Source: Gemmatimonadota bacterium (GTDB lineage: Bacteria; Gemmatimonadota; Gemmatimonadetes; Gemmatimonadales; Gemmatimonadaceae). From it: DNA of 49,825 nucleotides. The translations under genes and the position numbers were made by a program. This document shows, in pieces, positions 1,089 through 24,136 of this stretch. The stretch's first letter is position 1. Each line of letters starts with the position of its first letter. The notes under the pieces are model-generated. The model saw only the letters and a program-made list of their open reading frames with translations, did not search any database and was not told the DNA's origin. The stretch is from the NCBI GenBank assembly GCA_026387915.1, contig JAPLKS010000006.1, positions 1 to 49,825 of the forward strand. The letters run 5' to 3'.

Positions 1089-2858
1089 CTATTTACACCC
1101 GCGTATTCGAAACGCCCCAATCCGACTCGAATAGCTCGTTGCATCCTTCTTGAAATAGTCCCCCACATACCAAATCGTGCAGTCATCGCTCGGATCCACG
1201 CCGGTCTGCGTGTAGTCCTCCCAGCGGAGCGTAGTGGTCTGCGGCGCCGCACCTTCCGCGAGACGCACTTCGCGCAGCGAGAGCGTTCCCGTTTTATCGC
1301 CCGCGAGTCGCCCCGCCGCGCGCTGGCCGGCGTAGATGCCGAGCCCGCCGTGCGAGTAGCCGATGAGCATATTGCCAAGTTTGTCCATCGCGGCGCTGCC
1401 CATCCAGCGATACGAGCTGTCCGGAGCGAAGGTGCCCTGCTGATGCAGCGTGACCGCGCGACTTTTGCCGGCGACCCGGAACTCGTACCATCGCACGCCG
1501 CCGGCACCGGCGGTGGTGTTCACCGAGTGTGTGGCGACAATCGACTCGTGCCCATTCACGTTGCGGTATGCGAGGCGCGCCATGAGTTTGTCGCCCTGCG
1601 AATCGAGTCGACGATCGGTGCCTTGCTGCGGCACGCAGTTGCTGAGCTGGCCATCGCAGAGGTAGTGATACGGCGCCACCGGGATCGCGGATGGGCCAGT
1701 CGCTTTCGTTTTGGATGGATCAGTCCAGTCCACGTGGAACTGCCACACGTTAATGATCTGGTCCTCGAAGTTCTTGTCGAGTTGCCGGCCACCGGCGGCC
1801 ATCATGATGTTCGGTGCTCCAGCGGGGGGGAGTCTCGTACCGTCTACATCCGCGTTATTGAGAAAATTCACATTTTCAATGATGAGGCACTGCTCCGTGG
1901 CCGGCTCGCCTTTGAGCATCCGCGCGCGATCGGCGACGCAGGCATGCTTCTGCGTTGCCACTGACTCTGAGATGCGATCATCGCTCGTGCTGGTGGGCAC
2001 GTAGTAGCCGTCGGGCCACACGGCGGGGCGCGGGTAGTCGGGGAAGAGCGGGCGCAGAAATTCGTAGCGGAAGTATGCACCCATCGGATCGGCCGTTTCG
2101 CTGACCGCGTAGCACATCGAGTATTGGCCCTGCGGCTGACCCGGCGCCGGAGCGGCGGGCGCAGCAGCCCCGGCGCGTCCACGCCCGGGCTGCGCGGCCG
2201 GCGCGTTGGGATCCACCGGTGGCGGGGGAGGCGGCACAAAGAGTGCGGCCGCGCCGCCCGGTTGCCCCGCAACGCCTGGCACACTTAGCTGCGCGGGGTC
2301 ACCGACTTTTGATGCCTCGATCTGATCAGGGCGCACGGCGCCGCGCTGAAAGATTGGCAGCACGAACAACCAACGCTTGGCCAGTTGATCGTAGCGCACC
2401 ACGGCGTCGCCGCTGAGTCGCGACTCGCAGGGGCCGGTGAAGTTTTTGAAGATGGTGTTCGTCGCTACGGGGCCGTATAGCACCACGCCGGTGGAATCGT
2501 AGCGTTTACCTTTCTTGGTGAAGATCGCCATGCGCGAATTCACAATCTGAACAATGTGATCGGGACCCACGGCCACGCTGTTGTCCGACGGATTGCGGAG
2601 CGTGGTGGTGCCTTGCGGTCCGGTGAAGCCAACGCCGAGTCCGTCGAAACTGACGACGATGCGGATGCCGTCTTTGCTCCCGTGCTTCTTCTGCTCAGCG
2701 GCGCCTGATCCTTTGGGCGTCGTGATGACGGGGATCACGATTGGCGCCTGCTGCTGTGGAGTGGGCACGGGCATGGCGATCGCGCTATTCCATGTGGTCG
2801 CGGCGGAGATAACGGTCGCCACAAGCGATCCGGCGAGCGTGCGGGGCAATCGCGGCAT
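1089..2858 (-). CDS. Secreted protein of unknown function, probably beta-propeller-like
   Basis: A 589-residue exported protein with a signal peptide (MPRLPRTLAGSLVATVISAA). Motifs such as NPSDNSVAVGPDHIVQIVN, WMGSAAMDKLGNMLIGYSHG and the C-terminal DCTIWYVGDYF recur in large secreted proteins of Acidobacteria- and Gemmatimonadota-like genomes and suggest a beta-propeller. A Pro/Ala/Gly-rich insert (about residues 210-240) interrupts the fold, and several Cys pairs (GPCESR, CLIIEN, CDGQLSNC) could form disulfides. The start at 2858 is chosen because AGAGGA lies 6 bp upstream and the signal peptide begins there; the frame stays open further upstream without a ribosome site. It is the last gene of the minus-strand arm, 40 bp after the M61-type peptidase. 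No enzymatic function can be assigned. Confidence 0.8.
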   Translation of the reverse strand: MPRLPRTLAGSLVATVISAATTWNSAIAMPVPTPQQQAPIVIPVITTPKGSGAAEQKKHGSKDGIRIVVSFDGLGVGFTGPQGTTTLRNPSDNSVAVGPDHIVQIVNSRMAIFTKKGKRYDSTGVVLYGPVATNTIFKNFTGPCESRLSGDAVVRYDQLAKRWLFVLPIFQRGAVRPDQIEASKVGDPAQLSVPGVAGQPGGAAALFVPPPPPPVDPNAPAAQPGRGRAGAAAPAAPAPGQPQGQYSMCYAVSETADPMGAYFRYEFLRPLFPDYPRPAVWPDGYYVPTSTSDDRISESVATQKHACVADRARMLKGEPATEQCLIIENVNFLNNADVDGTRLPPAGAPNIMMAAGGRQLDKNFEDQIINVWQFHVDWTDPSKTKATGPSAIPVAPYHYLCDGQLSNCVPQQGTDRRLDSQGDKLMARLAYRNVNGHESIVATHSVNTTAGAGGVRWYEFRVAGKSRAVTLHQQGTFAPDSSYRWMGSAAMDKLGNMLIGYSHGGLGIYAGQRAAGRLAGDKTGTLSLREVRLAEGAAPQTTTLRWEDYTQTGVDPSDDCTIWYVGDYFKKDATSYSSRIGAFRIRGCK

Positions 2859-2898
2859 TCGGGTTCCTCTCTGAGGCTGTGACTGCAAAATACCGACG

Positions 2899-4656
2899 CT
2901 AACTACCGCGGCACACTCGCTCATCGACACCGGGCACGCGAGACCAAAGGTATACATCCACCAGCGCCGGTGAGCGCAAGAACTGTATGTTGAGCGGCAT
3001 ACCATTGCGCGTAATGTCCAGCGCGAGCTTCCTCGCCTCTGGACTCGTAAGCACTTCAACGGCAAGCGGAGTGAGTACCACATCCCCGTTACGCAGCCCC
3101 GCGATCGACGCGGCCGAACCGGGCACGAGACTCACGACGGTGCGCGCCTCCGGCACTCGGCGATCAAACGCGAAGTCAGGGCGAACATGCTTTTCGATTC
3201 GCCGTTCGAAACACGGCCCAAAAGCATCCGGTGCAAGCACGACGGTCTTGGTGCCTCGCACAATAATCGAGTCAAAGTCTGCCGCGGCGGAGGTGCCGAG
3301 CTCGCGCCTTAACGTTTCAATCCAGGTCTGTACAGTGACGTTTTCACCGCCGCTCCGGCGCCGGTTGAGGTCGAACATTTCCTGCGCGAGTGTCCGGCGC
3401 CCGCCCGTCGCTTTGCGGAGTTTGTCGTCGAGATCAAAGAAGTACAGCGCGCCGCGATTGTACGGGAGCACTTCGCCATTCTTGTCAGCCCAGAATGCGG
3501 CAGCGGCGGCTTCCCCCGACGCGTTGCGGTACGGGTTGGCGTAGTAGTCGCGGGAAATGCGATTGACGTCGCGCACGAACTCTTCAACAGGTTGCAGCCC
3601 GGTCCGAAGCTGCACGTACGCTGTGTAAAATGTGGTGAGCCCTTCCGTAGACCACTGGCCGCCGCCGGGGCCGCCAGCCCATCCGTGAATCATTTCGTGC
3701 GCAAGAACTCCACGAAGACTTGGCGCCGCTCCTGCGGGCCGCACGGGAGGATGCAACGGCACTTGAATCATGAACGAGCGATAGCCGGCGTTGCCACCTG
3801 ACGTTGTTGTTTCAGGCAACACGCGCAGGAAGAGACGGTACGGGCGAACGGCCGTGTCGCCGAAAAAACGGCTCAGGGCATCATACGCACGAGATGACCA
3901 CTGCATGTCGTCCTGCATCTGCAGACTCGGCGACTCGCCTGCCCAGTACGCGCTAAACGCTCCGGTATTGCCACCCACGGGATAGCGGCCGAGCTGCCCA
4001 GCCATAAAGAAGGTGGCATTGAGCAGGCTGAGTGGGCCTTCCGTATCAGCGTCACCGTCAGCGAGGCTAGACGCACCGATCGCTCCCGCGCCGAGCAGGG
4101 TGAGGTCCCAGTGGAGCACGATGTGGTAGGTGCGGTTGTCGTCGGGCAACGCGAGAAAGCCGGGGCCTCGGCCACTCACGCCGCCTGCGAATGTGCGAAG
4201 ATCCATTGGCGGCCCAGCGCGAAATCTCCGTGGCGCGACCACCGCGCGGTAGCGCACTTCCACCGGGAGGGCGAGCGCGCGACCCACGCGCCAATGGCGC
4301 ATGAATCCCGTGGCCGTGGAGTCGGGCGAGTCGTCGACGACGGTGAGCGGAACGTTCCCCGCGCGGTCCGTGACACGGAACTGTTCCATGCGGTCGGCGA
4401 TGCCCGGCAGGTTATTAAGCACCACCGCCGCGCGAAATTCGCGGATGGATGTGCCCGTATCCGTAATGACGTAGCGTACGTTGATGGCCGCCACATTTCC
4501 TACGGGGTCTCGTTCCGGCTGCAGCGTAATCTGGATTTGCGACGAGGCCGGCTTCGGTGGCTTCTGCGAATCGCTTTGTCGTGGCGCGGCCAACGCGCGT
4601 CTGCTGGCGAGTGCCAGTGAAATGGCAACGATCGCACGGCGAGTGAGGGAGCGCAT
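2899..4656 (-). CDS. M61-type (glycyl aminopeptidase-like) metallopeptidase with PDZ domain
   Basis: A 585-residue exported protein whose N-terminus (RR then a hydrophobic stretch, to about residue 24) looks like a Sec or Tat signal peptide. Zinc site: H320-E-M-I-H324 with the third ligand probably E338 in WSTEGLTTFY, the gluzincin arrangement of families M1 and M61. Residues 500-560 (PGSAASIAGLRNGDVV) are a PDZ domain, as in M61 enzymes. It shares domain order and the motif DAFGPCFERR with the paralogue at 22089, which lacks the PDZ domain. Spacing between the second His and the Glu is 13 residues, four fewer than in the paralogue. It likely trims peptides in the periplasm. The start could instead be the ATG at 4701; neither has a clear ribosome site. 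Confidence 0.85.
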   Translation of the reverse strand: MRSLTRRAIVAISLALASRRALAAPRQSDSQKPPKPASSQIQITLQPERDPVGNVAAINVRYVITDTGTSIREFRAAVVLNNLPGIADRMEQFRVTDRAGNVPLTVVDDSPDSTATGFMRHWRVGRALALPVEVRYRAVVAPRRFRAGPPMDLRTFAGGVSGRGPGFLALPDDNRTYHIVLHWDLTLLGAGAIGASSLADGDADTEGPLSLLNATFFMAGQLGRYPVGGNTGAFSAYWAGESPSLQMQDDMQWSSRAYDALSRFFGDTAVRPYRLFLRVLPETTTSGGNAGYRSFMIQVPLHPPVRPAGAAPSLRGVLAHEMIHGWAGGPGGGQWSTEGLTTFYTAYVQLRTGLQPVEEFVRDVNRISRDYYANPYRNASGEAAAAAFWADKNGEVLPYNRGALYFFDLDDKLRKATGGRRTLAQEMFDLNRRRSGGENVTVQTWIETLRRELGTSAAADFDSIIVRGTKTVVLAPDAFGPCFERRIEKHVRPDFAFDRRVPEARTVVSLVPGSAASIAGLRNGDVVLTPLAVEVLTSPEARKLALDITRNGMPLNIQFLRSPALVDVYLWSRVPGVDERVCRGS

Positions 4657-4751
4657 GGGAGTGGCCGAAAGAATGGGACGGCGTACGGCGGCGCGATGCA
4701 TCGGTGCACCACCCCGAGCAGACGGATCGCGGCAGATTGGCCGCGGCGAAC

Positions 4752-6098
4752 TTATCGCAGCGTGTCTCGCATACGGAGCGCGCGCATGCTCCGGCTCGCG
4801 CGATCGCCGAGCATCACCCAGTAGACGCATCCGGCGGCAATCCAGACCGCGAGCACCGCGTAGAGCCGACGGTCGGCACCCGCACCGGCGGCAATAATCA
4901 GCACGCCGAACACAATGCCGGCGGCAGACCAGAGTTTTACGGCTCTCCGGCTCAACCGGAAGTGTGCCGCCGCGTGCAGCGCAGGATGCTGGTCCACCAG
5001 ACGCCACGCCGACCAGCAGGTGCTGATGTACTTCAGCAATGTGGGAATCGTGACGGCGAGAAAAAGGAACACGAGACTCGTCGGCAGTAACAGGCCAATC
5101 ACGGCAAGCACGAATACCGCGGTGATCGCCACATGCGGCGTCGACCAACGCGGATGAATCTTCGCGAGCGCGGCGGGGAATACGCCATCGCGTCCCATTG
5201 CAAACAAAAAGCGTGCGAAGGTGATGTAGATGGCGTTGATGGATGTGCCGATGGACGCGACGGCTGCGACGAGAATTAGCGGCGTGTTCCAGCGACCGAG
5301 AAACACCGCGCCCGCGTCGAAGAGCGGGGCGTCGCTGGTTCCAAGTGCGGTGGCGCCGAGCGCTCCGAGCGCTACGCCTGATACGCTGAGGTACACTACG
5401 ATGGTCACGATGAGCGCGACGCCGAGTCCGCGTGCGATCACGGCCGTGCTGTCGATGATTTCCTCGCCGACCTCCGTCGCACTCTCGAGGCCCATGTACA
5501 GGGCCATCAGAATGGGCAATACGGCGAACAGCCCGCCGGTACCGGTGCCGAGCACCGGCTGGAGATTCGCGGTATGCACGGAGGTCGCGCCGACGACTAC
5601 AAACGTCGCGAACGCAATCAACTTGAACGCCACGAGAATCCGCTCCACGCTAGCGGCGAAGCGAACGCCGAGGAGATTCGCCAGATAAAACAGGAACAGT
5701 AGCGCGATCATAGTCGGCACACGTGGCAGTGCGACAACGCGTGACGCGTAGTTCACGAGCACGAGTGTCAGTAGTGTCATGGCGCCGACGTTCGCCAGAA
5801 TTCGCAGCCACGCGATCATGAAACCGACAAACGGATGCACGAACCGCGTTGGCCAGTCGAATGAGGCGCCGGATCGTGGTACCGCGGAGCCCATGAATCC
5901 GTAGACTACGGCGAACACAATCATGGGGACGGCGGCGATAGCAAAGGCGAGCAGCATTCCCGAACCGGCGACCGTTGCGGCTGGTGCCATCACAGAGAAA
6001 ATGGACACGCCCACCGCTGAGCCAACGCCTATCGATACGACATCGACGAGGGTGAGCGCACGCTTTAATTGGGGTGTTCCGGTGCTGCTATCCGTCAC
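4752..6098 (-). CDS. APC-family amino acid permease (left arm)
   Basis: A 448-residue inner-membrane protein with about twelve hydrophobic segments. The first helix carries GVGSAVGVSIFS, the glycine-rich unwound helix that binds substrate in the APC superfamily, and SATEVGEEI in the sixth helix region is also typical. The start codon is the GTG at 6098, overlapping the stop of the fecR-like gene by the tetranucleotide GTGA, so translation is probably coupled. It is a close paralogue of the permease at 13068: blocks such as VPRSGASFDWP, FLFAMGRDGV and CWSAWRLV are shared. The substrate cannot be read from the sequence; the peptidases nearby suggest an amino acid or short derivative. Confidence 0.9.
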   Translation of the reverse strand: MTDSSTGTPQLKRALTLVDVVSIGVGSAVGVSIFSVMAPAATVAGSGMLLAFAIAAVPMIVFAVVYGFMGSAVPRSGASFDWPTRFVHPFVGFMIAWLRILANVGAMTLLTLVLVNYASRVVALPRVPTMIALLFLFYLANLLGVRFAASVERILVAFKLIAFATFVVVGATSVHTANLQPVLGTGTGGLFAVLPILMALYMGLESATEVGEEIIDSTAVIARGLGVALIVTIVVYLSVSGVALGALGATALGTSDAPLFDAGAVFLGRWNTPLILVAAVASIGTSINAIYITFARFLFAMGRDGVFPAALAKIHPRWSTPHVAITAVFVLAVIGLLLPTSLVFLFLAVTIPTLLKYISTCWSAWRLVDQHPALHAAAHFRLSRRAVKLWSAAGIVFGVLIIAAGAGADRRLYAVLAVWIAAGCVYWVMLGDRASRSMRALRMRDTLR

Positions 6099-7036
6099 CG
6101 GCTGGGTCGGAAGAAGGCGTTGCCCGAGCGTACGGTGTCACCGTGCCGCGGGGTAGTGGCTTCGAGGAAGTCCATGCGCCAGTCCAACGCCTGCGCGGTA
6201 TCGACCCCAACGCGCACGCTCGTGGCACCAGTCGCGTTGAGGGTGGCTTCCATTCCTTTCTCGAGCATGTCGCCGGGCATCGCAACTTCGAGTTCGGAAC
6301 GCACGGTCGCCTTTCCCTCGGTCACGAGCACATGCACCGCGGTATCAGCCGAGTAACCCCGCACGACGAACTTGGTGCCGAAGTCGCGGACCATCACGTT
6401 CTTGACGTGCACAATGAATGGGAGCGTGTTCCGGTGTTCCACTTCAAAATATCCACGGCCGTCCAGCGTGACCTCACGCGTGGTGCGGTCGAATCCGACC
6501 GGCACGACGAGCCGGCTCTCCGGTGCGAGCGTGACTCGGGTTCCGTCGGTCAGACGGATGTCCGTGCGCGCCTCTGCGGTCGACACAAAGATTTGCGGTT
6601 GCGGGCCTGATCCTGTGCCCGGCATCCCAAGCTCAAGTCGCGCCCACCACGCCGAACCAGCGAGGAGAACAACGGTAGCCGCGCGTACGCTCACGTCACG
6701 CCAACGACGCGCCGGTGCTTGGCGGTGCGCACCGAGAAGACCGTTGCGCTCCGCATGAATGGTCAACGCGGACGGGAGTAGATCAGGCGCGGTCGACGCG
6801 TTCACCTCAGCGCGGAACCGGTCCCACGCGGCATCGACGTGCTGCGGTGTGACTCGTACGGCCGCCGCTTCGCGGATGGTGCGCAGGTCGTTCAGGACGT
6901 CGAGCCGAGCTGGGTCGCCCGCGAGCCACTCGTGCACGGCATCAACCGCCGTCGAATCGCCGTCAAGATAGCGATCCAGCAGCAGCCAGATGTGTTCGTC
7001 GTGAGGAAAGCCTTCCTCAGGTGTATCGATCAGCAC
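6095..7036 (-). CDS. FecR-like anti-sigma factor / transmembrane sensor
   Basis: A 313-residue single-pass membrane protein. The N-terminal cytoplasmic part (LLDRYLDGD..., about residues 1-100) resembles the sigma-binding domain. One transmembrane helix follows near residues 120-140 (VRAATVVLLAGSAWWA), then a periplasmic FecR domain (LTDGTRVTLAPESRL, REVTLDGRGYFEVEH). Such proteins hold an ECF sigma factor inactive until a TonB-dependent receptor signals uptake. I prefer the GTG at 7036, which has GGAG about 8 bp upstream; an in-frame TTG at 7099 would add 21 residues. It lies 126 bp behind the ECF sigma gene and overlaps the permease by 4 bp. The receptor at 8545 lacks an obvious N-terminal secretin/TonB-type signalling domain, so the input may differ from the classical Fec route. 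Confidence 0.88.
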   Translation of the reverse strand: MLIDTPEEGFPHDEHIWLLLDRYLDGDSTAVDAVHEWLAGDPARLDVLNDLRTIREAAAVRVTPQHVDAAWDRFRAEVNASTAPDLLPSALTIHAERNGLLGAHRQAPARRWRDVSVRAATVVLLAGSAWWARLELGMPGTGSGPQPQIFVSTAEARTDIRLTDGTRVTLAPESRLVVPVGFDRTTREVTLDGRGYFEVEHRNTLPFIVHVKNVMVRDFGTKFVVRGYSADTAVHVLVTEGKATVRSELEVAMPGDMLEKGMEATLNATGATSVRVGVDTAQALDWRMDFLEATTPRHGDTVRSGNAFFRPSR

Positions 7037-7162
7037 TGCGAGGTCTCCGAGGTCCTGTGACTCAAAGTGAGGACAGGGCGGGGTACGATTCTCCCCCAAG
7101 GGGAGCCGCCGCGGAGGGAGACCGGAGCGAGCCGGCGTGCGTGTTCGAGCGAGGTCACGGGA

Positions 7163-7750
7163 CTACCCCAACAGCAGGCGCATACGCTGCCGAAGGAACT
7201 TCAAGCCGCGCGCGAGTTGTGTCTCAACAGTCTTGGGCGCGATCTGCAGGCGCTGTGCGATTTCGGCGTAGCTGAACCCGTCGACGAGTCGCATTTCGCA
7301 GATGACCCGGCGTTTTTTCGGCATCTCCGCGAGCGACGTGGCCAGGGCACGATCGATATCCGAGACCTCGAGATCGTCGTAGTTCGGTTCTTCTAATGGT
7401 ACGGACGCGAACTCGATCGCCGCTCGTTCCATGAACCGTGTGGTCGTCCGGTCGTGCTCAATCCTATTGAGGCTCACGTTGCGCACCGCGTAGAGCAGGT
7501 ACGCACGTACGGAACTCTGAGGGCTCCAGGTGGCGTGGTTTCGCCACACGCGCATGAAGACTTCCTGCGCGGCTTCTTCGGCGGCCTCTCGGGTACGCAG
7601 GAGCCGAAAAGCGTACTGGTAGAGCGCTTCCCAATGCGTGCGAAAGACCAACTCAAAGGCCGCCGCATCGCCCGCGCGCACACGCTCCGCTACCGCAACA
7701 TCCGTCTCAGGTTGAGTCGGGATGGCCAATGGACGCGTGAGAGGGATCAC
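7163..7750 (-). CDS. ECF-type RNA polymerase sigma factor
   Basis: A 195-residue sigma-70 family protein. Region 2 spans about residues 35-100 (AFELVFRTHWEALYQYAF, AQEVFMRVWRN) and region 4 about 135-190 (MPKKRRVICEM, GFSYAEIAQRLQIAPKTVE, the helix-turn-helix). Size and domain order fit the sigma/FecR-paired class common in SusC/SusD-bearing bacteria. The GTG at 7750 is chosen because a TTGACA-17 bp-CATTAT promoter ends 6 bp before it, which predicts a transcript starting at or one base before the GTG, i.e. a leaderless mRNA. The frame stays open to 7873 but that extension would cross the promoter. It heads the left arm and probably controls both arms of the locus. Confidence 0.9.
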   Translation of the reverse strand: MIPLTRPLAIPTQPETDVAVAERVRAGDAAAFELVFRTHWEALYQYAFRLLRTREAAEEAAQEVFMRVWRNHATWSPQSSVRAYLLYAVRNVSLNRIEHDRTTTRFMERAAIEFASVPLEEPNYDDLEVSDIDRALATSLAEMPKKRRVICEMRLVDGFSYAEIAQRLQIAPKTVETQLARGLKFLRQRMRLLLG

Positions 7751-7756
7751 GCGCGG

Positions 7757-7785
7757 ATAATGCCGTTTTGGTAAGGCGCTGTCAA
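7757..7785 (-). promoter_or_regulatory. Sigma-70-type promoter for the ECF sigma operon
   Basis: On the minus strand a perfect -35 box TTGACA (7785-7780) is followed by a 17-bp spacer and CATTAT (7762-7757, four of six consensus bases). The predicted transcription start is at 7750-7751, exactly at the GTG start codon. It lies in the divergent region 7751-7893 shared with the RidA-SusC arm. Confidence 0.65.
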
Positions 7786-7893
7786 TCGGTGCGTCGCTCT
7801 GATTTGGGGGCGAAACGCCAGCTGTGCGGTTTCCCGTTGGTGATGGCGCGTGCGGCGCCGCCAACAATAACACCTCGAAACAGGGTGATCCCC

Positions 7894-13045: not shown

Positions 13046-13067
13046 CCCTCGACACGCGGACCGCCGC

Positions 13068-14417: not shown

Positions 14418-17400
14418 ACTATCGGCGGGGGCAGTGCCTAGCGGTGGTCATCGCGGTGGCCTGCGCTAGCGCCACGGCGCCCGCGCAAGTCGCCGACTCG
14501 CTCGTGATCGCCGCCGCTCGCTGGCGCACGATCGGTCCGGCCCTGAGTAGCGGGCGGCTGGCCGACGTGGTGGGCATTCCAGGGCCTTCCAAAACGTTTT
14601 TCATTGCCGCGGCAGCAGGCGGCGTGTGGAAATCGGGCAACAATGGGATCACTTGGCGCCCTGTCTTCGACGACAAACGCATCGCATCCATGGGCGCGCT
14701 CGCCATCGCACCATCCGACACGCAGACCGTGTGGGCTGGGTCGGGTGAACCGAACGTGCGCTATCCATCAGAGCCGGGCGGTGGCGTCTTCAAGTCATCA
14801 GACGGTGGCGCGACCTGGCGCCTGATGGGCCTGAATAAATCGGAACGAATTGGGCGCATCGTGGTGCATCCGCGAGATCCCAACATTGTGTATGTGGCGG
14901 CACTCGGCGCCCTGTATGGCCGCAATGCGGAACGCGGACTCTACAAGACCACCGACGGCGGAAAAACGTGGGTCCTCAGCAAGTTCATTGACGACCGCAC
15001 GGGCTTTGTCGATGTCGTCATGGATCCCCGCAATCCAGAGGTGCTGTACGCGGCGAGCTGGCAGGTACGCCGTACGGCCTACTCCCTGGAGAGTGGTGGC
15101 CCAGGGTCGGGTCTCTGGAAAACCGTCGATGGTGGCCGCACGTGGACGGAGATCGTCGGCTCCGGATTCCCCACTGGGGTAAAGGGGCGCATCGGACTCG
15201 CACTGGCGCCGAGCAACCCCGACGTCGTGTACGCGCTCACAGAGGCGGGCCGGCCGACCACAGACAAGTCGTACGTGCCTGAGTATCACGCGCCGAACAG
15301 CGGCTTGTATCGTTCGGCCGACGCGGGGCGGACCTGGACCAAGACGAGCGACTACAACGATCGGCCATTTTACTACTCGCAGGTCCGCGTCGATCCGCGC
15401 GACAGTGACCGCATCTATTTTTCGTCGAGTCCGCTGCAGCTCTCAACCGATGGCGGTAGAACCTCCCGGTTGGCCTCGGAAGGCGTGCATTCCGATACGC
15501 ACGGCATCTGGATTGACCCCAGTGACCCCGAGCGATGGGCGATCGCTGGGGACGGTGGCTTCTCCATCACGTTCGATAAAGGGGGGACGTTCCTCTCCCC
15601 AATGAATCTGCCGCTGAGCCAGTTCTATCATGTTGGGCTCGACAATGCGATTCCGTACAACGTGTGTGCGGGCGGTCAGGACAATGGCGTGCACTGTGGG
15701 CCGAGTCGCCGAAAGGGCGGCACAACCACGAACGCGGACTGGTCGTTGGTGCAAGGCGGGGACATGGCCTACGCCATTCCAGATCCGTTCAATCCATCGC
15801 TCTGGTTCACGGAGTCGAGCAGCGCGTTGATCACGCGCCTGAATCTGAACACGAGCGAAGGGATGACGGTGCGTCGCCCGCACTGGGAAGCCCGCTATCA
15901 AACGTGGGAGGATTCCATTGCTACGGTGCGTGGTAATCCGTTGACTCCTGCCGCGCCAACGGTGGTTGCCGCGATCGCCGCGCTACGCGCCAAGCAGCAT
16001 CAGGATTCGCTTGACCTCGACATCCGCTTTGGCTGGGATGCGGGACTCGTGGTATCGGCGCACAAGCAGGGAGTCGTCTACTGGGGCGGAAGTCGGGTGC
16101 TCAAGTCGACGCAGGGCGGAGAGCATATGACGCCCATCTCGCCAGACCTCACCAAGAAACTCTACGCCAAAATTGACACGTCGCAGCATCTCACCGGCGG
16201 CGTGAACCTCGAGACGACGTACACGGAGTCGTTTGGATACACGGTCGCGCTCGCGGAGTCACCAATTAAAGCCGGCCTGCTGTACGCGGGGACAGATGAC
16301 GGCAACGTCTGGGTGACGCACGATGACGGCGCGAAGTGGGAAGATCTCTCCGATCGTTTTCCGGGCCTGCCGGCTACGGAGCCGTATGTGGCAAGCATCG
16401 AGCCTTCGCATGCCGACACGCTGACGTTCTATGTCGTGTTCGACAACCATCGCGTCAACGATGGAAAACCATACCTGTATGCCACGCACGATGGTGGCCG
16501 CACCTTCCGTCGCATCTCCAGCGGACTGCCCGCTGACGGGCCCGCCGACTATTTGCATGTGGTGCGTGAGGATCCGCACAACGCGAGTCTGCTCTTCGTC
16601 GGTTCGTCGATCGGCGTCTTTGTGTCGGTCGACGGCGGAGCAACGTGGGGACGTTTCATGACTGGGCTCCCGTCCGTCCCAGTGTTTGATTTGCAGATCC
16701 ACGCACGCGACCACGAACTGGTGGCGGCGACCCACGGGCGTAGCATCTGGGTGGTAGATATTGCGCCGCTCGAAGATCGCGATGCCCGTGCGCGCACCGC
16801 GCAGTCGTATCTCTTTTCCCCACGCTCGGCGCTGCAGTGGTCGGAGCCCGCCACGCGCGGCAACGCAGAGGGGAACGCGACGTTCGAGACCATCAGTCCG
16901 CCATACGGCGCGCGCATCACCTATCGTCTCGCGGCAGCCGTCCCAAGCGGAGTCGTCTCCATTAGTGTGGCAAACGCCGCCGGCGACGTGCTGACGACGC
17001 TTCGCGGCCCAGGCGACGGAGCAGGCGTCCGTTCTGTAGTGTGGGACTATCTGATTCCCGCACCCGCGTCGGCTCCCGCTCCGCTGTCAGCCTCGATGCG
17101 CCGCGATAGTGTCTTGCGTGCCGTTCGAGTGCCGGTCGTTCTCGACTCCCTCCGGAAGGCAGGGTATGATCCGGTCTCACTCACGCGAGCCAGTGAACTG
17201 ATCGCGAGCGCGCGGTTCAGCGGCACCTCTGCCGGTGGTCGAGGAGCGCGCGGCGGACGTGGGGCGAGTGTCGGCGGCGCCTCAACCGGATGCGAGCGGC
17301 CGTCGACGCCGCAAGAACTGTTCTGCCCACGCCCGGCGGAAGGTGGTCCACAAGGACCGAGAGGCATCCAGGGCCCCTTCACAAGCCCGTTGGTCGTCAA

Positions 17401-17635
17401 CGGAGCAGATCCCAAGCGGGTGCTCCGTGTGTTTGATATCGTGGGATTCTCCTACTTCAATACTCCCAGCGGACGATCGTGGCTCGGCTCCGGAAATGAG
17501 GGCGCGCCGAGTCCTTCGTTAGCCCCTCCGGGGGAGTACACGCTCACGCTTATCGCGGGTAGTGACACCACGAGGCAGCGTTTGCGGGTGGAGCGTGCAT
17601 CGAGTGCGTCCGGCGGGATCCCACGAAGACACTAA
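14414..17635 (+). CDS. Exported BNR/VPS10-like beta-propeller protein
   Basis: A 1073-residue exported protein (signal peptide to about residue 25, SATAPAQ). At least five Asp-box/BNR motifs are visible (SSDGGATW, TTDGGKTW, TVDGGRTW, SADAGRTW, SVDGGATW), the hallmark of sialidase/sortilin (VPS10) type propellers. The second half (about 780-1073) is a beta-rich tail with a Gly/Arg-rich linker near residues 935-960. Proteins of this type are often called 'glycosyl hydrolase' but no catalytic triad of a sialidase is evident, so binding or scaffolding is as likely. Its GTG start overlaps the permease stop. In this setting it may hold or present substrates to the peptidases. The enzymatic label should be treated as unproven. 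Confidence 0.88.
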   Translation: MNYRRGQCLAVVIAVACASATAPAQVADSLVIAAARWRTIGPALSSGRLADVVGIPGPSKTFFIAAAAGGVWKSGNNGITWRPVFDDKRIASMGALAIAPSDTQTVWAGSGEPNVRYPSEPGGGVFKSSDGGATWRLMGLNKSERIGRIVVHPRDPNIVYVAALGALYGRNAERGLYKTTDGGKTWVLSKFIDDRTGFVDVVMDPRNPEVLYAASWQVRRTAYSLESGGPGSGLWKTVDGGRTWTEIVGSGFPTGVKGRIGLALAPSNPDVVYALTEAGRPTTDKSYVPEYHAPNSGLYRSADAGRTWTKTSDYNDRPFYYSQVRVDPRDSDRIYFSSSPLQLSTDGGRTSRLASEGVHSDTHGIWIDPSDPERWAIAGDGGFSITFDKGGTFLSPMNLPLSQFYHVGLDNAIPYNVCAGGQDNGVHCGPSRRKGGTTTNADWSLVQGGDMAYAIPDPFNPSLWFTESSSALITRLNLNTSEGMTVRRPHWEARYQTWEDSIATVRGNPLTPAAPTVVAAIAALRAKQHQDSLDLDIRFGWDAGLVVSAHKQGVVYWGGSRVLKSTQGGEHMTPISPDLTKKLYAKIDTSQHLTGGVNLETTYTESFGYTVALAESPIKAGLLYAGTDDGNVWVTHDDGAKWEDLSDRFPGLPATEPYVASIEPSHADTLTFYVVFDNHRVNDGKPYLYATHDGGRTFRRISSGLPADGPADYLHVVREDPHNASLLFVGSSIGVFVSVDGGATWGRFMTGLPSVPVFDLQIHARDHELVAATHGRSIWVVDIAPLEDRDARARTAQSYLFSPRSALQWSEPATRGNAEGNATFETISPPYGARITYRLAAAVPSGVVSISVANAAGDVLTTLRGPGDGAGVRSVVWDYLIPAPASAPAPLSASMRRDSVLRAVRVPVVLDSLRKAGYDPVSLTRASELIASARFSGTSAGGRGARGGRGASVGGASTGCERPSTPQELFCPRPAEGGPQGPRGIQGPFTSPLVVNGADPKRVLRVFDIVGFSYFNTPSGRSWLGSGNEGAPSPSLAPPGEYTLTLIAGSDTTRQRLRVERASSASGGIPRRH

Positions 17636-17682: not shown

Positions 17683-19203
17683 ATGTCCGTCCGTTCATCT
17701 AACGGTTCGCTGTGCGGTCGCCGCACCATGTGCTCCGCCATCGTCTCGGTGCTCTTGGTCACCGCAGCGGCCAACCGAAGCCTGTACGCGCAGGGCACTC
17801 CAGTCGTCGCGGCGCCCGTGCACGCCCCAGTCGTTACGCATCGGGAGGGCGTGTTCAACGGAAAGAAGGTGGCGTACACTGCGACAGTGCAGGAGACGGT
17901 CGTTCCCAACGCCGCTGGCGCTCCAGGCGCGCGCATCGTGAGCACCGCCTACACGGCAGACGGCAGCAGCGCGCCCGCGCGCCCGGTGCTCTTTGTGTGC
18001 AACGGCGGTCCGATTGGTCCGTCGAATCCATTGCATATGCTCGCGATGGGGCCACGCCGACTTGCGATCCCATCTGATCTGACGGCAGCTGCGGCGTCAT
18101 TTACGCTGGTCGATAACGGATATGCGGTGCTCGATGTCGCCGATATTGTGTTCTTCGATCCGGCCAGCACAGGGTGGAGCCGCGTGATGGACGGCGTGAA
18201 GCCAGAGTCGTACTACACAACGGATGACGACGCCCAGCAGTTTGCGGCGTTCATCGATCGTTGGCTCCGCGAACATCACCGCATGGCGTCGCCGAAGTAT
18301 GTCCTCGGCGAGAGCTACGCTACCATTCGCGTTCCGGAAACGGCGCGGCAGTTGCTGCACCTTCCAGCGCCGATCATCCTCGACGGCGTGTTTCTCATGG
18401 GACAAGCCGCGAATCAGCTCGAGATCAACACGCGTCCCTACAACATCCTCGCCCCAGTTGTCGGCCTGCCCTCCGTGGCTGCCACCGCGTGGTACCACAA
18501 TAAAGTGGATCGCAAAGGGCGCACGGTGTATCAGGTGATGGCCGAGGCCGCGCAGTTTGCGAACGGCGAGTATCTGACCGCGCTCTTTAAGGGCAATGCG
18601 GCCCTATCCGAGCGGGAGCGGTCGCGGATCGCGGAACGGCTCGAATCATTCACCGCGATTCCTGCCTCGTACTTCCTGGCGAACAATCTGCGCATCACGC
18701 GGCCAACGTTTCAAAATGAGTTGCTCAAGCAACAAGGGCTCAAACTCGGCTCCGATGACGCGCGATACGTGGGACCGGTGAAGGGGCCGGAGCCGGATGC
18801 GGTGCTCGCATCGGCAGCCTACGCAGCAATGTTGCGCTATTTTCGGGACGAGCTGAAAGTTGACCGCCCCGATGAGTATCGGCGTCGTCAGTTTCCGGCC
18901 GAAGTGTCCGATCGCAATGGGTGGGCGTATGCACCCGCGGGATCGCCCTTCTCGGATTTTCCGTACACCGCCTCGATTACCGAAGTCATGAACGCGAATC
19001 CAAACTTCCGCGTGGTGGTGGGTTCCGGGATCTACGATATGAAGACGACCACCGGCGCCGCCGAATACCTGATCGCGCAATCCGGGTGGCCCGCGACTCG
19101 CGTTCGCATCTCGTACTATGAGGGCGGTCATATGGCCTACACCAACGAAAGCGCCCTCAAAGTTTTCGCGGCCGACGTGCGAGCATTGGTGACGGGAAAA
19201 TAA
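17683..19203 (+). CDS. S10-like serine carboxypeptidase with altered oxyanion loop
   Basis: A 506-residue exported alpha/beta hydrolase. Triad: Ser211 in LGESYAT, Asp452 in SGIYDMKT, His483 in YEGGHMAY, all in the order and spacing of serine carboxypeptidase family S10. The loop that normally reads NGGPGSSS is NGGPIGPS here (residues 107-114), so the oxyanion hole is changed relative to the second S10-like enzyme at 20411 (NGGPGSNA). A signal peptide ends near residue 37 (SLYAQG). S10 enzymes remove C-terminal residues from peptides. The ATG at 17683 is preferred to a TTG at 17638. The gene follows the propeller by 47 bp. Confidence 0.88.
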   Translation: MSVRSSNGSLCGRRTMCSAIVSVLLVTAAANRSLYAQGTPVVAAPVHAPVVTHREGVFNGKKVAYTATVQETVVPNAAGAPGARIVSTAYTADGSSAPARPVLFVCNGGPIGPSNPLHMLAMGPRRLAIPSDLTAAAASFTLVDNGYAVLDVADIVFFDPASTGWSRVMDGVKPESYYTTDDDAQQFAAFIDRWLREHHRMASPKYVLGESYATIRVPETARQLLHLPAPIILDGVFLMGQAANQLEINTRPYNILAPVVGLPSVAATAWYHNKVDRKGRTVYQVMAEAAQFANGEYLTALFKGNAALSERERSRIAERLESFTAIPASYFLANNLRITRPTFQNELLKQQGLKLGSDDARYVGPVKGPEPDAVLASAAYAAMLRYFRDELKVDRPDEYRRRQFPAEVSDRNGWAYAPAGSPFSDFPYTASITEVMNANPNFRVVVGSGIYDMKTTTGAAEYLIAQSGWPATRVRISYYEGGHMAYTNESALKVFAADVRALVTGK

Positions 19204-19260: not shown

Positions 19261-20367
19261 ATGACACCACCCGAAACATCCGTTCTGTCCGACGAGGCCC
19301 GTCGTTTGCGCCGCGACTTTCCGTACGTCGACGAATGCGTCTATCTCAACACGGCGTCCGCGGGGCTCTCGTGGCAGGGGCAAGGAACCGCCGCCGCGGC
19401 GTTTTATGATATGGCGAAGTCACGCGGCATGAACGGCATGCCCGTCTGGCAGACCTCCGCAGCGGCCGTGCGCGAGCGTCTCGCTCGGCATCTTTCGGTG
19501 CAACCCGATGAGATCCGTTTTGCCGGCAGCACCACTGAGGCGCTGAATCTGGTTGTCGGTGCGGTGCGCTGGCTGCCGGGCGACGAAGTGGTCTGGACGG
19601 CGGATGAATTTCCTTCCGTGGCGCTCGCATGCGAAAGCGCAGGCCGCGCGGGCGCGACGCTCTGTCCCGTTGTCGTCCACTCCGAGGAAGAACGCCTAGC
19701 GGCCATCTTGGATGCGCTCACGCCAGCGACGCGTGTCGTCGCGGTATCGCACGTGCATTGGGTGACAGGCACGCGCCTCGATCTCGTGCGTCTTTCAGCG
19801 GCGTGCCATGCCGTAGGCGCCATGCTGGTGGTGGACGGCATTCAGGCGCTTGGGGCTGTTCCCGTCGATCTTGGCGAAACGGACGTGTACTGCGCGTCGG
19901 TATTTAAATGGCTGCTGTCAGGTTTCGGTCTCGCCGTGCTCGTCGTGCGCGATCGCGTGCGCGCGGAGCTGACGCCCGGTATTCGCGGGTACAATAACGA
20001 ATCACCGTCGAGCGATCTCCACTACAGTCACGTGAACTATCCGGGTCTCTACGCGCTCGCTGCGTGTTTGTCGTATCTCGAAACCGTCGTCGGCTGGGAA
20101 ACCGTGCATCGGCGCGTACGGACATTGACTGGGGAACTTGCCGTCGATTTATCGAATCGCGGATTTCGCGTGATCACACCGCTGGACGCACGGGCCGGCA
20201 TCGTCAGCTTCGCGCTCCCAGGGGCGGATCCAGTTGTAGGGCGCGACCGCCTTGCCAAAGAAGGCATCTATGTAGAGGCGCGCGGTGGACTGATGCGTGT
20301 GTCGCCTCACTTCTACAACACGAGTAACGAACTCACCCGGTTCATCGACGCCGTCACGCGGCTCTGA
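19261..20367 (+). CDS. Class V aminotransferase-fold PLP enzyme
   Basis: A 368-residue cytoplasmic enzyme of the aminotransferase class V / cysteine desulfurase fold. Asp192 (VVDGIQALG) should pair with the pyridine nitrogen and Lys216 (ASVFKWLLSG) should form the Schiff base with PLP; TTEALNLV near residue 91 binds the phosphate. It has no conserved desulfurase cysteine loop that I can see, and resembles the isopenicillin N epimerase-like subgroup, which acts on amino acids or peptides. Position between two exported peptidases with RidA in the same arm suggests degradation or racemisation of an imported amino acid. The start ATG at 19261 lies 57 bp after the previous stop. Confidence 0.87.
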   Translation: MTPPETSVLSDEARRLRRDFPYVDECVYLNTASAGLSWQGQGTAAAAFYDMAKSRGMNGMPVWQTSAAAVRERLARHLSVQPDEIRFAGSTTEALNLVVGAVRWLPGDEVVWTADEFPSVALACESAGRAGATLCPVVVHSEEERLAAILDALTPATRVVAVSHVHWVTGTRLDLVRLSAACHAVGAMLVVDGIQALGAVPVDLGETDVYCASVFKWLLSGFGLAVLVVRDRVRAELTPGIRGYNNESPSSDLHYSHVNYPGLYALAACLSYLETVVGWETVHRRVRTLTGELAVDLSNRGFRVITPLDARAGIVSFALPGADPVVGRDRLAKEGIYVEARGGLMRVSPHFYNTSNELTRFIDAVTRL

Positions 20368-20410
20368 CCGCGCTCGTCGTGTTGAACGTGATCAAAAGGA
20401 GCATCGTCGC

Positions 20411-22000
20411 ATGATTCAGACGTTCCAGAGACTCGCGCGTCGCTCGGTACGCGTAGGGCTTGCGGCTCTTGCCGCGACATCAGTGAGCGGTGCGCAGGAC
20501 AACGCCGTTGTGACAACGCATCATCAGGTGAAAGTGGGAGGGCGCACCATCGCCTATACCACGCGCGCGGGGCGGCTCCCGATTATCGACAACGACGCGG
20601 GCGATGTGCACGCCAACATCTTCTTTGTCGCGTACACGGTTGATCGTGTCGCTGGGCAGCCCGCGAGGCCGCTCACCTTTGCGTGGAACGGCGGCCCTGG
20701 TTCAAATGCCGGGCTCGTCCACTTGCTCGGCTTCGGGCCGCGTCGCATTCGCCGAGTGGGCGATGCGTCTCGCCCTGAGCAGCAAACGTCGGTCGTCGAG
20801 GATAATCCGGGCACCTGGATCGATCAAACTGACCTCGTGTTTGTGGATCCCGTTGGCACGGGGTATAGCCGTCCAACCAAGCCAGAGTACGCTGCCGAGT
20901 TTTATCAAACACGCGGCGACAATGAGTCGATCGCCGAGTTCATTCGCACGTATCGCAATCGCTTCGATGCGTGGGATTCGCCGCTCTTCCTCGCCGGAGA
21001 ATCCTACGGGGTGACGCGCGCGGCGGGCGTGTCGGAAGCACTCACGCGGCGTGGCGTCAAGCTGAAGGGCATTACCCTGATCTCGCTCGCGCTGCCGCTC
21101 GGACCGCTGCCTGCGACGATGGCGACCGCGCTCTCTCTGCCGACGCTGACAGCGGCAGCGTTTTATCACAAGAAGCTCGCGCCGGATTTGATGGGCAATC
21201 TCGAAAATACGCTGCGGCTGGCAGGCACCTTCGCCGAGCAGGAGTACGCGCCAGCGCTCGCGCGTCGCGACAGCCTGACCGCATCGCAGCGCTCCGCACT
21301 CCTCGCGCAGCTGTCGCGCTTTACCGGTCTTGACGCCCGAACGTTTGACGTGCCAGCGCTCGGCATTGGTATGTCGCAGATCGACGACCAACTGTTGCGG
21401 CGAGAAGGCCGCTACGTAGGACGATACGACACGCGACTGACCTCCGTGCTCGATACCACACCTCGACCGTACGATCCCAAAGAGGATCCGAGTCTCAGTA
21501 ACTTGCTGAGCGACGTGGCAGTCATTCGGTACCTGCGGAACGAGCTGGGATATAAGAGCGATTTGTTGTATCAGGGGCCGTGGGGCGGGGGATACCCTGC
21601 GCCGACCACGTTTCGTGGTGACTGGATGTCGATGCGATGGGGCGCCCGTCGAGAGTCCGCAGCCGGAGGGCGAGGGGGCGCCGATTCAACCGCCAGCCGC
21701 CCAGGCTCCGGCAGAGGCGCCACGCCGTCCACCACAACGGTTGAGCCACTGCGAGCCGCGCTCCTCGCCGATCATGATCTCCGCGTGCTCTCCGTATGCG
21801 GCTACTACGACTTGATGTGCGCCTACGCAGCCAATGATTGGGTGGTGAACCACCTGGATGCATCGATTCGTGATCGTGTGGTGACCCGCGTGTATGCGGG
21901 TGGACATGCTATCTATACAGACCCCGCAGCACAGGCCGCACTCAAGCGCGATGTCGGGAAGTTGCTGCAGGGGACGTTGTCGCGCGGAGTGCAGCCGTAG
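20411..22000 (+). CDS. S10-like serine carboxypeptidase
   Basis: A 529-residue exported peptidase with signal peptide (cleavage near SVSGAQ, residue 28). Oxyanion loop WNGGPGSNA (92-100), nucleophile Ser198 in LAGESYG, Asp467 in GYYDLM, His499 in AGGHAIY, all as expected for family S10. A low-complexity Gly/Ser/Thr/Arg segment near residues 412-440 is probably a surface loop. The ribosome site AAGGAG at 20396-20401 sets the ATG at 20411. It is a distant paralogue of the enzyme at 17683; the two flank the PLP enzyme gene. It probably releases C-terminal amino acids from imported or periplasmic peptides. Confidence 0.9.
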   Translation: MIQTFQRLARRSVRVGLAALAATSVSGAQDNAVVTTHHQVKVGGRTIAYTTRAGRLPIIDNDAGDVHANIFFVAYTVDRVAGQPARPLTFAWNGGPGSNAGLVHLLGFGPRRIRRVGDASRPEQQTSVVEDNPGTWIDQTDLVFVDPVGTGYSRPTKPEYAAEFYQTRGDNESIAEFIRTYRNRFDAWDSPLFLAGESYGVTRAAGVSEALTRRGVKLKGITLISLALPLGPLPATMATALSLPTLTAAAFYHKKLAPDLMGNLENTLRLAGTFAEQEYAPALARRDSLTASQRSALLAQLSRFTGLDARTFDVPALGIGMSQIDDQLLRREGRYVGRYDTRLTSVLDTTPRPYDPKEDPSLSNLLSDVAVIRYLRNELGYKSDLLYQGPWGGGYPAPTTFRGDWMSMRWGARRESAAGGRGGADSTASRPGSGRGATPSTTTVEPLRAALLADHDLRVLSVCGYYDLMCAYAANDWVVNHLDASIRDRVVTRVYAGGHAIYTDPAAQAALKRDVGKLLQGTLSRGVQP

Positions 22001-22088
22001 GCAGCCTCCGACGGCGCGGGCGCCGAGCCCGTGCGGTGGACAACAGAACGCACCGAGTCTCCGTTTCTCGTTGAGGAGTATCGCTCGC

Positions 22089-23657
22089 ATGAGCCAGCAC
22101 CCGCAGTACCGCCGCATCGCCCCGTTGGCGCTCCTCGCGCTACTCGCGCTACTCTCCGCCTCCGCGCCAGCCCAGCGGCGCCCGCGCACGACCGGCGCCG
22201 TCGTCGGTACCGTGGAGCACGTCTGGAAACCGGTGCGCGACGGTGGCGCCGAGGTCACGGCCATCGAAGTGCGTACCGTTGTGCAGATACAATCGGACTC
22301 CGTCGCTCAGGCGTTCAGCTTAAACGCGCCTATCACGTATGCCGGCGTTGCGGGCATTGCTGAGCGCGTGCGAAACTTCGAGGTCAAAGACGCCCTTGGC
22401 ACCGTGCCCTTTCGCATTGAGAACGACGCGCCGAATGCCGGAGGCTTTCCGTTCTATCGTCACTGGCGTGCGGAACGAGCGGTGCGTTTCCCTCTCACGA
22501 TGACGTACCGGTCGCTCGCGCCCGACAAAGCGCTCCGCGAACCGCCCTTTGGTTTGTTTGCCACCGCCGGCGGCGTGAGTGGTGCCGGCTCCGGCTTCTT
22601 AGTGCTTCCCGAAACACCGGCGCGCGTCACCACGCGCGTGCATTGGGATCTCAGTGACCTCGCGGCGGGCTCCAGCGGCGTCACCTCTTTCGGTGACGGC
22701 GACGTGCAACTCGATGGCCCCGCCGACGGCGTACGGCAGGGATGGATCATGGCGGGCCCCTTGGGCAAATACCCAGCAAAGAGCGGCGCCGAGGGCTTTA
22801 GTGCGGTATGGCTCGGCACACCGGCGTGGGACCCGGAACCGGAAATGCGTTGGACGGCTACCATGTACGAATACCTCGGCAAGAGCTACCACTATTTGAA
22901 TCCGCTGCCGAGTTACCGCGTCTTCGTGCGCGTCGGCGCACAGGGCGGTACGGCACTCGGCGCATCCTTTATGGGTGGCGCGGCAGCGCGGCAGCCGGGT
23001 GCGGCGCCGCAGGGGCTGTCACCCCGTGAGACCTTTACTCACGAGATGGGCCATCTCTTTGTGGGCGCGGTCAGAGCACCGGACGGCATTTCCAGCTGGT
23101 TCAGCGAGGGTTTGAACACGTACTACACGAGACTATTGCCGATGCGCGGCGGCTTCACCTCGGTGGACGATTACGGCAAGGACATCAATCGCGCCTTCCG
23201 CGAGTACTACGACGGCTCCGCTCGTAACTTCTCGGCGGATTCCATCACGCGCGTCGGTTTTACCGACAACACTGTCCGGCACATGCCGTATGTGCGCAGC
23301 AGCCTCTATTTCGCCGACCTCGACTCACGGATCCGAGCACATTCCCGCGGCGTGCGCAACCTCGACGCGGTGATGCAGGAGCTGTTCGTGCGTCGAGCGA
23401 GTGGCACCGCGTTTGATCATGCGGCGTGGATCGAGATCGTCGTGCGCGAAGCCGGCGCAGAGGCGGCGGCCATGTTTCAAAACATTATCATCGCCGGCAC
23501 ACAAACACTGGTGCCCGCCTCCGATGCATTCGGGCCATGCTTTGAGCGCCGCGATGTGTCGGCGCAAGTCGCGGACGGTAAAGAAACCCGACGCGCCGGA
23601 TACGAGTGGGTGCGCGTGCCGGGGCGCTCGGACGAGCAGTGTCGCGCGCCATGGTGA
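22089..23657 (+). CDS. M61-type metallopeptidase without PDZ domain
   Basis: A 522-residue exported protein with a strongly hydrophobic signal peptide (LALLALLALLSASAPAQ). Zinc site H318-E-M-G-H322 and probably E340 in WFSEGLNTYY, a 17-residue gap typical of gluzincins. N-terminal beta domain (about 30-250) matches that of the paralogue at 2899, including FYRHWRAERA and GGVSGAGSGFL. The C-terminus ends shortly after DAFGPCFERR and lacks the PDZ domain. The ribosome site GAGGAG (22073-22078) precedes the ATG at 22089. The stop overlaps the next gene by 7 bp. Confidence 0.87.
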   Translation: MSQHPQYRRIAPLALLALLALLSASAPAQRRPRTTGAVVGTVEHVWKPVRDGGAEVTAIEVRTVVQIQSDSVAQAFSLNAPITYAGVAGIAERVRNFEVKDALGTVPFRIENDAPNAGGFPFYRHWRAERAVRFPLTMTYRSLAPDKALREPPFGLFATAGGVSGAGSGFLVLPETPARVTTRVHWDLSDLAAGSSGVTSFGDGDVQLDGPADGVRQGWIMAGPLGKYPAKSGAEGFSAVWLGTPAWDPEPEMRWTATMYEYLGKSYHYLNPLPSYRVFVRVGAQGGTALGASFMGGAAARQPGAAPQGLSPRETFTHEMGHLFVGAVRAPDGISSWFSEGLNTYYTRLLPMRGGFTSVDDYGKDINRAFREYYDGSARNFSADSITRVGFTDNTVRHMPYVRSSLYFADLDSRIRAHSRGVRNLDAVMQELFVRRASGTAFDHAAWIEIVVREAGAEAAAMFQNIIIAGTQTLVPASDAFGPCFERRDVSAQVADGKETRRAGYEWVRVPGRSDEQCRAPW

Positions 23658-24136
23658 CAGCGCTCACCATCACCCCCGTCGCTCCGCACGAGTGTGACGC
23701 CCTCGCGTCCCTCATGCGCCGCACTATCGAGCCGCTCTCGTACTACAACGCGCGCGCCATCCGCGCCGAGCTCATCAAATACACCGCCGACACATTGCGC
23801 ACACTCGCGGCCGCCGAGCCACAGGCCGTGCTCGTGGCCCGGCGCGGCGCCGAGATCATCGGGTTCTGCGTGAGCCGCTTTGACGACGGCACCATTTGGC
23901 TCTCCTGGTTTGGCACCGACGCCAGTGCGCGCGGCCAAGGCGTGGGCGCAGCACTCCTCGCCGCGCTGGCGAGCACACTCCCGGCTCGACACGCGCACAA
24001 AATCTGGTGCGACTCGCGGGTGGAGAACGTGGAATCGAAGTCCGTCCTCGAACGTGCTGGTTTTAAGCGCATTGCCACGCTCGCCAATCACTGGTACGAG
24101 CAGGACTACTTCCTGTGGGAGTGGTACCCGTCGTAA
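23651..24136 (+). CDS. GNAT family N-acetyltransferase
   Basis: A 161-residue cytoplasmic enzyme with the acetyl-CoA-binding motif A (ARGQGVGAALL, near residues 95-105) preceded by the strand IWLSWFGTD, and a C-terminal FKRIATLANHWYEQDYFLWEW. GNAT enzymes transfer acetyl groups to amines. It starts inside the last codons of the M61-type gene (7-bp overlap) and is the last gene of the right arm before a bidirectional terminator. The substrate is unknown; acetylation of an amino acid or peptide product would fit the locus. Confidence 0.85.
   Translation: MVTALTITPVAPHECDALASLMRRTIEPLSYYNARAIRAELIKYTADTLRTLAAAEPQAVLVARRGAEIIGFCVSRFDDGTIWLSWFGTDASARGQGVGAALLAALASTLPARHAHKIWCDSRVENVESKSVLERAGFKRIATLANHWYEQDYFLWEWYPS

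Follow-up and report, generated by a model that had tools for sequence, protein, structure and literature searches.

A putative accessory peptide-utilization island with a SusC/SusD importer in a Gemmatimonadota genome

The stretch of DNA analyzed here (the window; 49,825 nucleotides) is one entire contig (C6; JAPLKS010000006.1) of a Gemmatimonadota genome (GCA_026387915.1) that comprises 3.58 Mb in 23 contigs. It contains a locus in which two divergent arms flank a central gap of approximately 143 bp. The left arm encodes an ECF sigma factor, a FecR anti-sigma factor, an APC permease, an M61 peptidase, and a secreted protein (the 1089 protein); the right arm encodes RidA, SusC, SusD, a second APC permease, a VPS10 propeller, an S10 peptidase, a class-V pyridoxal phosphate (PLP) enzyme, another S10 peptidase, and a second M61 peptidase. 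Comparison with other genomes suggests that this locus is probably an accessory peptide-utilization island, in which import by SusC/SusD, trimming by peptidases, and catabolism by the PLP enzyme (PLP5) and RidA would be combined. Its features are as follows.

1089..2858, minus strand: secreted protein with a signal peptide, without a Pfam, NCBIfam, or PDB relative
2899..4662, minus strand: M61L, secreted M61-like metallopeptidase (PF05299; HEMIH ... E); inferred start
4752..6098, minus strand: APCL, APC-superfamily amino-acid permease, 67% identical to APCR
6095..7099, minus strand: FecR-like anti-sigma factor (PF04773), spanning the membrane once; open reading frame (ORF), true start probably inside
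7163..7750, minus strand: ECF sigma factor (PF08281, PF04542); GTG start at 7750 inferred
7751..7893, no strand: divergent intergenic region, with one sigma-70-like site at 7785-7757 (minus strand)
7894..8397, plus strand: imine deaminase of RidA type (PF14588 type) that retains the catalytic Arg and Glu positions
8545..11631, plus strand: SusC/RagA TonB-linked outer-membrane channel; N-terminal CarbopepD_reg, no STN
11651..13045, plus strand: SusD-like lid lipoprotein (lipobox GSTAC); assigned via paralogues
13050..14417, plus strand: APCR, amino-acid permease; inferred start
14414..17635, plus strand: secreted VPS10/sortilin-like BNR propeller protein (PF15902)
17728..19203, plus strand: S10a, secreted serine-carboxypeptidase-like protein; Ser/Asp/His triad intact
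19261..20367, plus strand: PLP5, cytoplasmic class-V PLP enzyme; Schiff-base Lys216; nearest solved fold C-DES
20411..22000, plus strand: S10b, secreted S10 peptidase; triad intact; inferred start
22089..23657, plus strand: M61R, secreted M61-like metallopeptidase (HEMGH ... E); 50% identity to the protein of the Amphiplicatus cluster
23606..24136, plus strand: GNAT acetyltransferase, outside the unit; core-genome neighbor of polyamine genes

Composition-based gene calling returned the same gene order as the ORFs of the first-pass annotation, a reading made from the sequence alone, and every ORF named there is present in the ORF list of the window. Its family names proved correct by Pfam and NCBIfam for the ECF and FecR proteins, both APC permeases, RidA, SusC, the VPS10/sortilin protein, both S10 proteins, and the class-V PLP enzyme; the two M61-type proteins score just under the Pfam cut-off (M61L, 21.1 bits for PF05299; cut-off 22), but HExxH and the distal Glu are intact in both. 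The ORF ends account for the GTGA overlaps at 6095-6098 and 14414-14417. Both hairpins exist, one at 1030-1065 with 17 of 17 pairs and another at 24165-24208 that is 95% complementary.

The same annotation had extended the unit to the GNAT gene and the right-hand hairpin, which is contradicted by synteny in genus mates that lack the locus. In three of these (G118, G238, and G063), a GNAT of 69-74% identity adjoins, or lies one gene from, the same decarboxylase gene, and the GNAT/decarboxylase gap of G118 has its own hairpin. The polyamine gene pair to the right of the locus is found in all six other genomes of the genus. Because the GNAT gene stands beside this pair, or one gene away, in three genus mates without the locus, it and the right hairpin belong to the core genome; GNAT is thereby ruled out as a member, and the island ends at M61R (23657), spanning approximately 1089-23657. 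The left edge is the 1089 gene, whose left neighbor (465-941) is kept in the sister metagenome-assembled genome (MAG) described below; the 1030-1065 hairpin sits in the convergent gap between these two genes. Rfam and tRNA scans gave no matches.

Both S10 proteins match PF00450 above cut-off, and the triad and NGGP oxyanion motif are invariant in 55-56 of 56 aligned rows, the two window proteins included. The M61 zinc ligands (HEMIH/HEMGH) and EG motif are kept in 17 of 18 aligned rows, the remaining row being gapped there. Reading of the sequences gave putative signal peptides for the 1089 protein, M61L, VPS10, S10a, S10b, and M61R and none for RidA or PLP5, a distribution that points to trimming outside the cytoplasm and PLP/RidA chemistry inside. 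The 1089 protein is 96% conserved, at the same position, in the sister MAG; its AlphaFold model (predicted local distance difference test score, pLDDT, 27) was discarded.

SusC scores 440 bits for TIGR04056 (cut-off 368), and its TIGR04057 signature is also above cut-off. SusD has no direct Pfam match; it is 50% identical to a SusD paralogue in its own genome (L003), located beside SusC, and PF07980 matched in one of the six members of that paralogue set. Five SusC/SusD paralogues of the same genome were rejected as copies of the locus, as none has the other locus genes. The presence of SusC/SusD favors a glycan-type polysaccharide utilization locus (PUL) with accessory peptidases, as does a sub-threshold score of the VPS10 protein (118 bits; cut-off 175) against the F510_1955 glycosylhydrolase model. 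However, no glycosidase or polysaccharide lyase in the locus scores above cut-off by Pfam or NCBIfam, in line with the first-pass annotation, and the related clusters beyond Gemmatimonadota are peptidase clusters; we regard a glycan function as highly improbable.

Within the class, the locus is rare. Among 246 genomes, only two have the APC permease at E < 1e-60, the window genome and a single genus mate (99%), and a true PLP5 is confined to the same two. In this genus mate, the sister MAG RH-18aug17-373, the locus is complete but broken at the sigma gene between two contigs, and the divergent intergenic region is nearly identical. Since two of the seven genomes of the genus carry the locus, we consider it an accessory island. 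In a third Gemmatimonadota MAG, Kiruna2_bin-1709, one contig bears ECF-FecR-APC-M61 and a second bears VPS10-S10a-PLP5-S10b, with identities of approximately 75-90%. Class-V PLP and S10 homologues of approximately 30-37% identity in other Gemmatimonadota were rejected as members, no cluster being found around 12 S10 neighborhoods. Separately, VPS10 propeller genes lie near S10 homologues in other Gemmatimonadota (L095 6117-11000 and L078), where the remaining island genes are missing.

When 84,980 species genomes were scanned for the APC permease, relatives were found in Burkholderiales, Amphiplicatus, and one proteobacterial MAG. In Burkholderia, Caballeronia, and Pandoraea the gene order is APC-PLP5-RidA-porin, with a YheO-like PAS regulator close by, assigned by similarity to the rhizobial and Streptomyces regulators; two rhizobial plasmids carry ABC amino-acid transporter-PLP5-RidA-PAS regulator. 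The Burkholderiales module is rare too, as a PLP5 search at E < 1e-80 of 200 genomes of that order returned only the source genome.

The peptidases recur elsewhere. Of 120 genomes sampled from the alphaproteobacterial order of Amphiplicatus, 12 have an S10a relative at E < 1e-70. All 11 neighborhoods fetched, and that of Amphiplicatus, are clusters with S10 copies, an amidohydrolase, OCD, and PLP enzymes; most also have APC, M61, AsnC, and a TonB receptor inside a 19-kb stretch, with two to three S10 and one to two M61 genes among the components. The window locus itself has neither the amidohydrolase nor OCD. Because these clusters had been found by S10a similarity, M61R was used as a second, independent bait. 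It matched 13 of the 120 genomes (the 12 S10-positive ones and one more), on the same contig as S10a and 1.5-14.5 kb from it; the hypergeometric probability of this co-occurrence, 1e-15, is inflated by kinship. Permease and PLP5 baits led to S10/M61/APC clusters on a Novosphingobium PP1Y plasmid and on a Streptomyces plasmid (NZ_CP109486), the latter with a PLP5 (36%), RidA, an M20 peptidase, and an SBP_bac_5 oligopeptide transporter, and a related peptidase-permease set is present in a gammaproteobacterial MAG (L102). In the gammaproteobacterial order, class-V PLP and S10 homologues, again at approximately 30-37% identity, were rejected as members, with no cluster in five neighborhoods.

These recurring peptidase-APC-PLP clusters, some with RidA, make peptide utilization well supported. 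The peptide or amino-acid role first proposed from the gene content is thus backed by Alpha- and Gammaproteobacteria and an actinomycete, and further by peptide-directed partners: the Xaa-Pro-dipeptidase-like amidohydrolase of the proteobacterial clusters, the M20 peptidase, and the oligopeptide ABC transporter. It had also been reasoned that peptidases, RidA, and PLP enzyme never co-occurring with SusC/SusD in other genomes would count against this role; this is not the case, and in related sets outside Gemmatimonadota SusC/SusD is replaced by other importers. The SusC/SusD pair is the host-specific importer and lies outside the conserved core.

Two observations stand beside these. S10/M61/amidohydrolase/OCD/AsnC/APC/TonB clusters of approximately 20 kb (L112, L114, L118-L129) occur in approximately 10% of the sampled genomes of one alphaproteobacterial order, and we found no account of such S10/M61/amidohydrolase/OCD clusters in the open-access literature. 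A plasmid of Streptomyces sp. NBC_01445 (L117) carries S10, a PAS regulator, an oligopeptide ABC transporter, APC, PLP5, RidA, an amidohydrolase, S10, M20, and M61 in a single cluster.

The nearest solved structure to PLP5, by both sequence and fold search, is the cystine C-S lyase C-DES (approximately 21% identity). Lys216 aligns with K223 of C-DES, the Schiff-base position, and four aligned PLP5s lack Cys in their conserved C-terminal stretch (EARxGLxRVSPHFYN). An assignment as cysteine desulfurase (SufS/CsdA) was rejected (90 bits against a cut-off of 475; no Cys in that stretch where a catalytic Cys loop would be called for). Fold class V also includes aminotransferases and epimerases. In RidA, HARSA aligns with PARSC of Escherichia coli RidA, and the catalytic Arg (Arg105 of E. 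coli TdcF) is kept; Rid proteins with the conserved Arg hydrolyze enamine/imine products of PLP enzymes (PMC4433059). Our best guess is that the cytoplasmic step pairs a C-S/beta-lyase with an imine deaminase.

A sharper form of the peptide-utilization explanation would have the locus degrade one unusual peptide class, sulfur-crosslinked or otherwise modified, with PLP5 and RidA acting as a C-S/beta-lyase pair on amino acids that are S-linked or beta-substituted (cystine, lanthionine-like compounds, S-conjugates). The likeness to C-DES, the placement of Lys216, the Cys-free C-terminal stretch, and the imine-hydrolyzing Arg all agree with it, but the identity to C-DES is low, SufS-type structures score almost equally in the fold search, confidence in the predicted model is moderate (pLDDT 70), and the breadth of the fold class leaves room for other reactions. 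We consider this version possible but doubtful.

Other neighbors suggest a different chemistry, in which PLP5 and RidA would process imines derived from D- or N-modified amino acids. PAS_6/HTH_22 (YheO-like) regulators adjoin PLP5-RidA in rhizobia and Streptomyces and, by similarity, in Burkholderiales; the OCD (ketimine-reductase) genes of the proteobacterial clusters resemble pyrroline-2-carboxylate reductase; and Rid2/Rid3 proteins speed the D-arginine dehydrogenase reaction in vitro (PMC5619798). The window locus, however, has no OCD, D-amino-acid oxidase, racemase, or PAS regulator, and we regard this alternative as unlikely.

In the S10 tree, S10a and 32 cluster S10s fall on one side of a branch (SH-like approximate likelihood-ratio test support, SH-aLRT, 99) and 18 non-cluster S10s on the other, with S10a inside the cluster-specific clade of the proteobacterial S10-M61-APC clusters; S10b lies on the opposite side from S10a, grouped with S10b proteins from three other clusters (100). 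M61R joins the Amphiplicatus-type M61 (99). The window permeases are sister to those of the Burkholderiales modules (100), and PLP5 joins the Burkholderiales, rhizobial, and Streptomyces PLP5s (100); the class-V PLP enzyme of the proteobacterial clusters is a different one. From these groupings, the island appears to be a hybrid that joins a peptidase set and an APC-PLP5-RidA module to SusC/SusD of host type. Codon use is host-like in SusC/SusD and not in most other island genes; codon and GC evidence for transfer is suggestive, not decisive, and the island was probably acquired horizontally. Each arm has one APC and one M61 copy, the permeases being 67% and the M61s 37% identical. Of all sequences compared, APCL and APCR are closest to each other and so appear to stem from a duplication in the lineage of the island; the two M61 copies do not group as sisters.

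The separate affinities of the permease and PLP5 (Burkholderiales modules) and of the peptidases (alpha- and gammaproteobacterial clusters), with the split in codon use, could mean that unrelated modules, including a native SusC/SusD, merely lie side by side with no single function. Against this, comparable peptidase, APC, and PLP sets occur together in Streptomyces and Proteobacteria, and the island is intact in the sister MAG; we find such a chance assembly distinctly improbable.

The description of the locus as self-regulated is plausible. An ECF sigma factor and a FecR-like anti-sigma factor are both present and the arms share the central gap, from which control of both by ECF/FecR is plausible. 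No shared inverted or sigma-factor motif was found in the divergent region, and Pfam detected no STN domain on SusC, whose N-terminus begins with CarbopepD_reg, so that the usual transducer is missing.

In the peptide-utilization island as we picture it, SusC/SusD would capture peptides and import them across the outer membrane; two carboxypeptidase-like S10 and two aminopeptidase-like M61 enzymes would trim them in the periplasm or at the surface; and the APC permeases would import the released, perhaps modified, amino acids. Cytoplasmic PLP5 may then deaminate or cleave one particular amino acid via an enamine/imine product, which RidA would hydrolyze to a keto acid, with ECF/FecR controlling both arms from the central gap. 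The sequences themselves establish the gene families, their intact catalytic residues, the conserved synteny, and the recurrence of peptidase, APC, and PLP genes (in part with RidA) in other phyla; transport, the order of these steps, the substrate class at the level of chemistry, and control of both arms by the ECF factor are what we infer. Several points weigh against this reading: SusC/SusD occurs together with the peptidase set only in the window genome and its sister; a window-type SusC was not recovered in Kiruna2_bin-1709, perhaps because that assembly is fragmented; both M61 Pfam scores are near the cut-off; it does not account for the VPS10 and 1089 proteins; and SusC lacks the STN domain that the classical FecR pathway needs.

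A broader proposal, which we entertain without favoring it, is a cross-phylum catabolic system for one peptide class, built of paired S10 and M61 peptidases, APC, and PLP/Rid deamination with an exchangeable outer importer: a TonB receptor in Proteobacteria, an oligopeptide ABC transporter in Streptomyces, and SusC/SusD in Gemmatimonadota. In the open-access literature we found neither the S10-M61-APC-PLP clusters nor their Gemmatimonadota version described, which is weak evidence of absence.

Elsewhere in the window, the pair at 24237-26830, a PLP decarboxylase and a saccharopine-dehydrogenase-like gene, resembles the carboxynorspermidine polyamine route; this pair is kept throughout the genus, whereas three members of the family from outside it gave no match at E 1e-50. 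Tandem HYDIN/ASH/Cep192-type Ig-like domains (PF22073, PF22544) are encoded at 38038-40971, and a CheB-CheR-PAS fusion at 33148-36237, downstream of a hybrid histidine kinase.

Glycan uptake is what SusC/SusD is commonly taken to indicate; this locus offers a concrete, testable peptide case in Gemmatimonadota, tied to clusters of peptidases and permeases in Proteobacteria and an actinomycete. Related sets in named isolates (Amphiplicatus metriothermophilus, Novosphingobium sp. PP1Y, Streptomyces sp. NBC_01445), and the PLP-RidA part in Caballeronia and Rhizobium leguminosarum, make the substrate question directly testable.

Among known systems, RagAB of Porphyromonas gingivalis is a SusCD-type importer of oligopeptides that takes up gingipain-cut peptides (PMC11817032). 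The window pair resembles it in the SusC/SusD partnership, the N-terminal CarbopepD_reg extension, and a predicted peptide diet, but is encoded alongside ECF/FecR, RidA, APC permeases, S10/M61 peptidases, and a class-V PLP enzyme. Like the PULs of Bacteroidota, the locus unites SusC/SusD, a regulator, and degradative enzymes, with peptidases and amino-acid catabolism in place of glycan-active enzymes. As in FecI/FecR surface signaling, an ECF sigma factor and a FecR-like anti-sigma factor lie beside a TonB-dependent transporter, whereas the classical transducer is missing. The transporter-PLP5-RidA modules of Burkholderiales and rhizobia, some with a YheO-like PAS regulator, share PLP5 (45-50% identity), a PF14588-type RidA, and, in Burkholderiales, the APC permease (62-65%); they have no peptidases or peptide channel, and instead a porin (Burkholderiales) or an ABC amino-acid transporter (rhizobia). 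The S10-M61-APC-PLP clusters have homologous S10, M61, and APC proteins and, in Streptomyces, also a PLP5-type enzyme and RidA; they differ in using a TonB receptor or oligopeptide ABC transporter where the window has SusC/SusD, an AsnC or YheO-PAS regulator where it has ECF/FecR, and an extra amidohydrolase, to which the Proteobacteria add OCD and a different class-V PLP enzyme.

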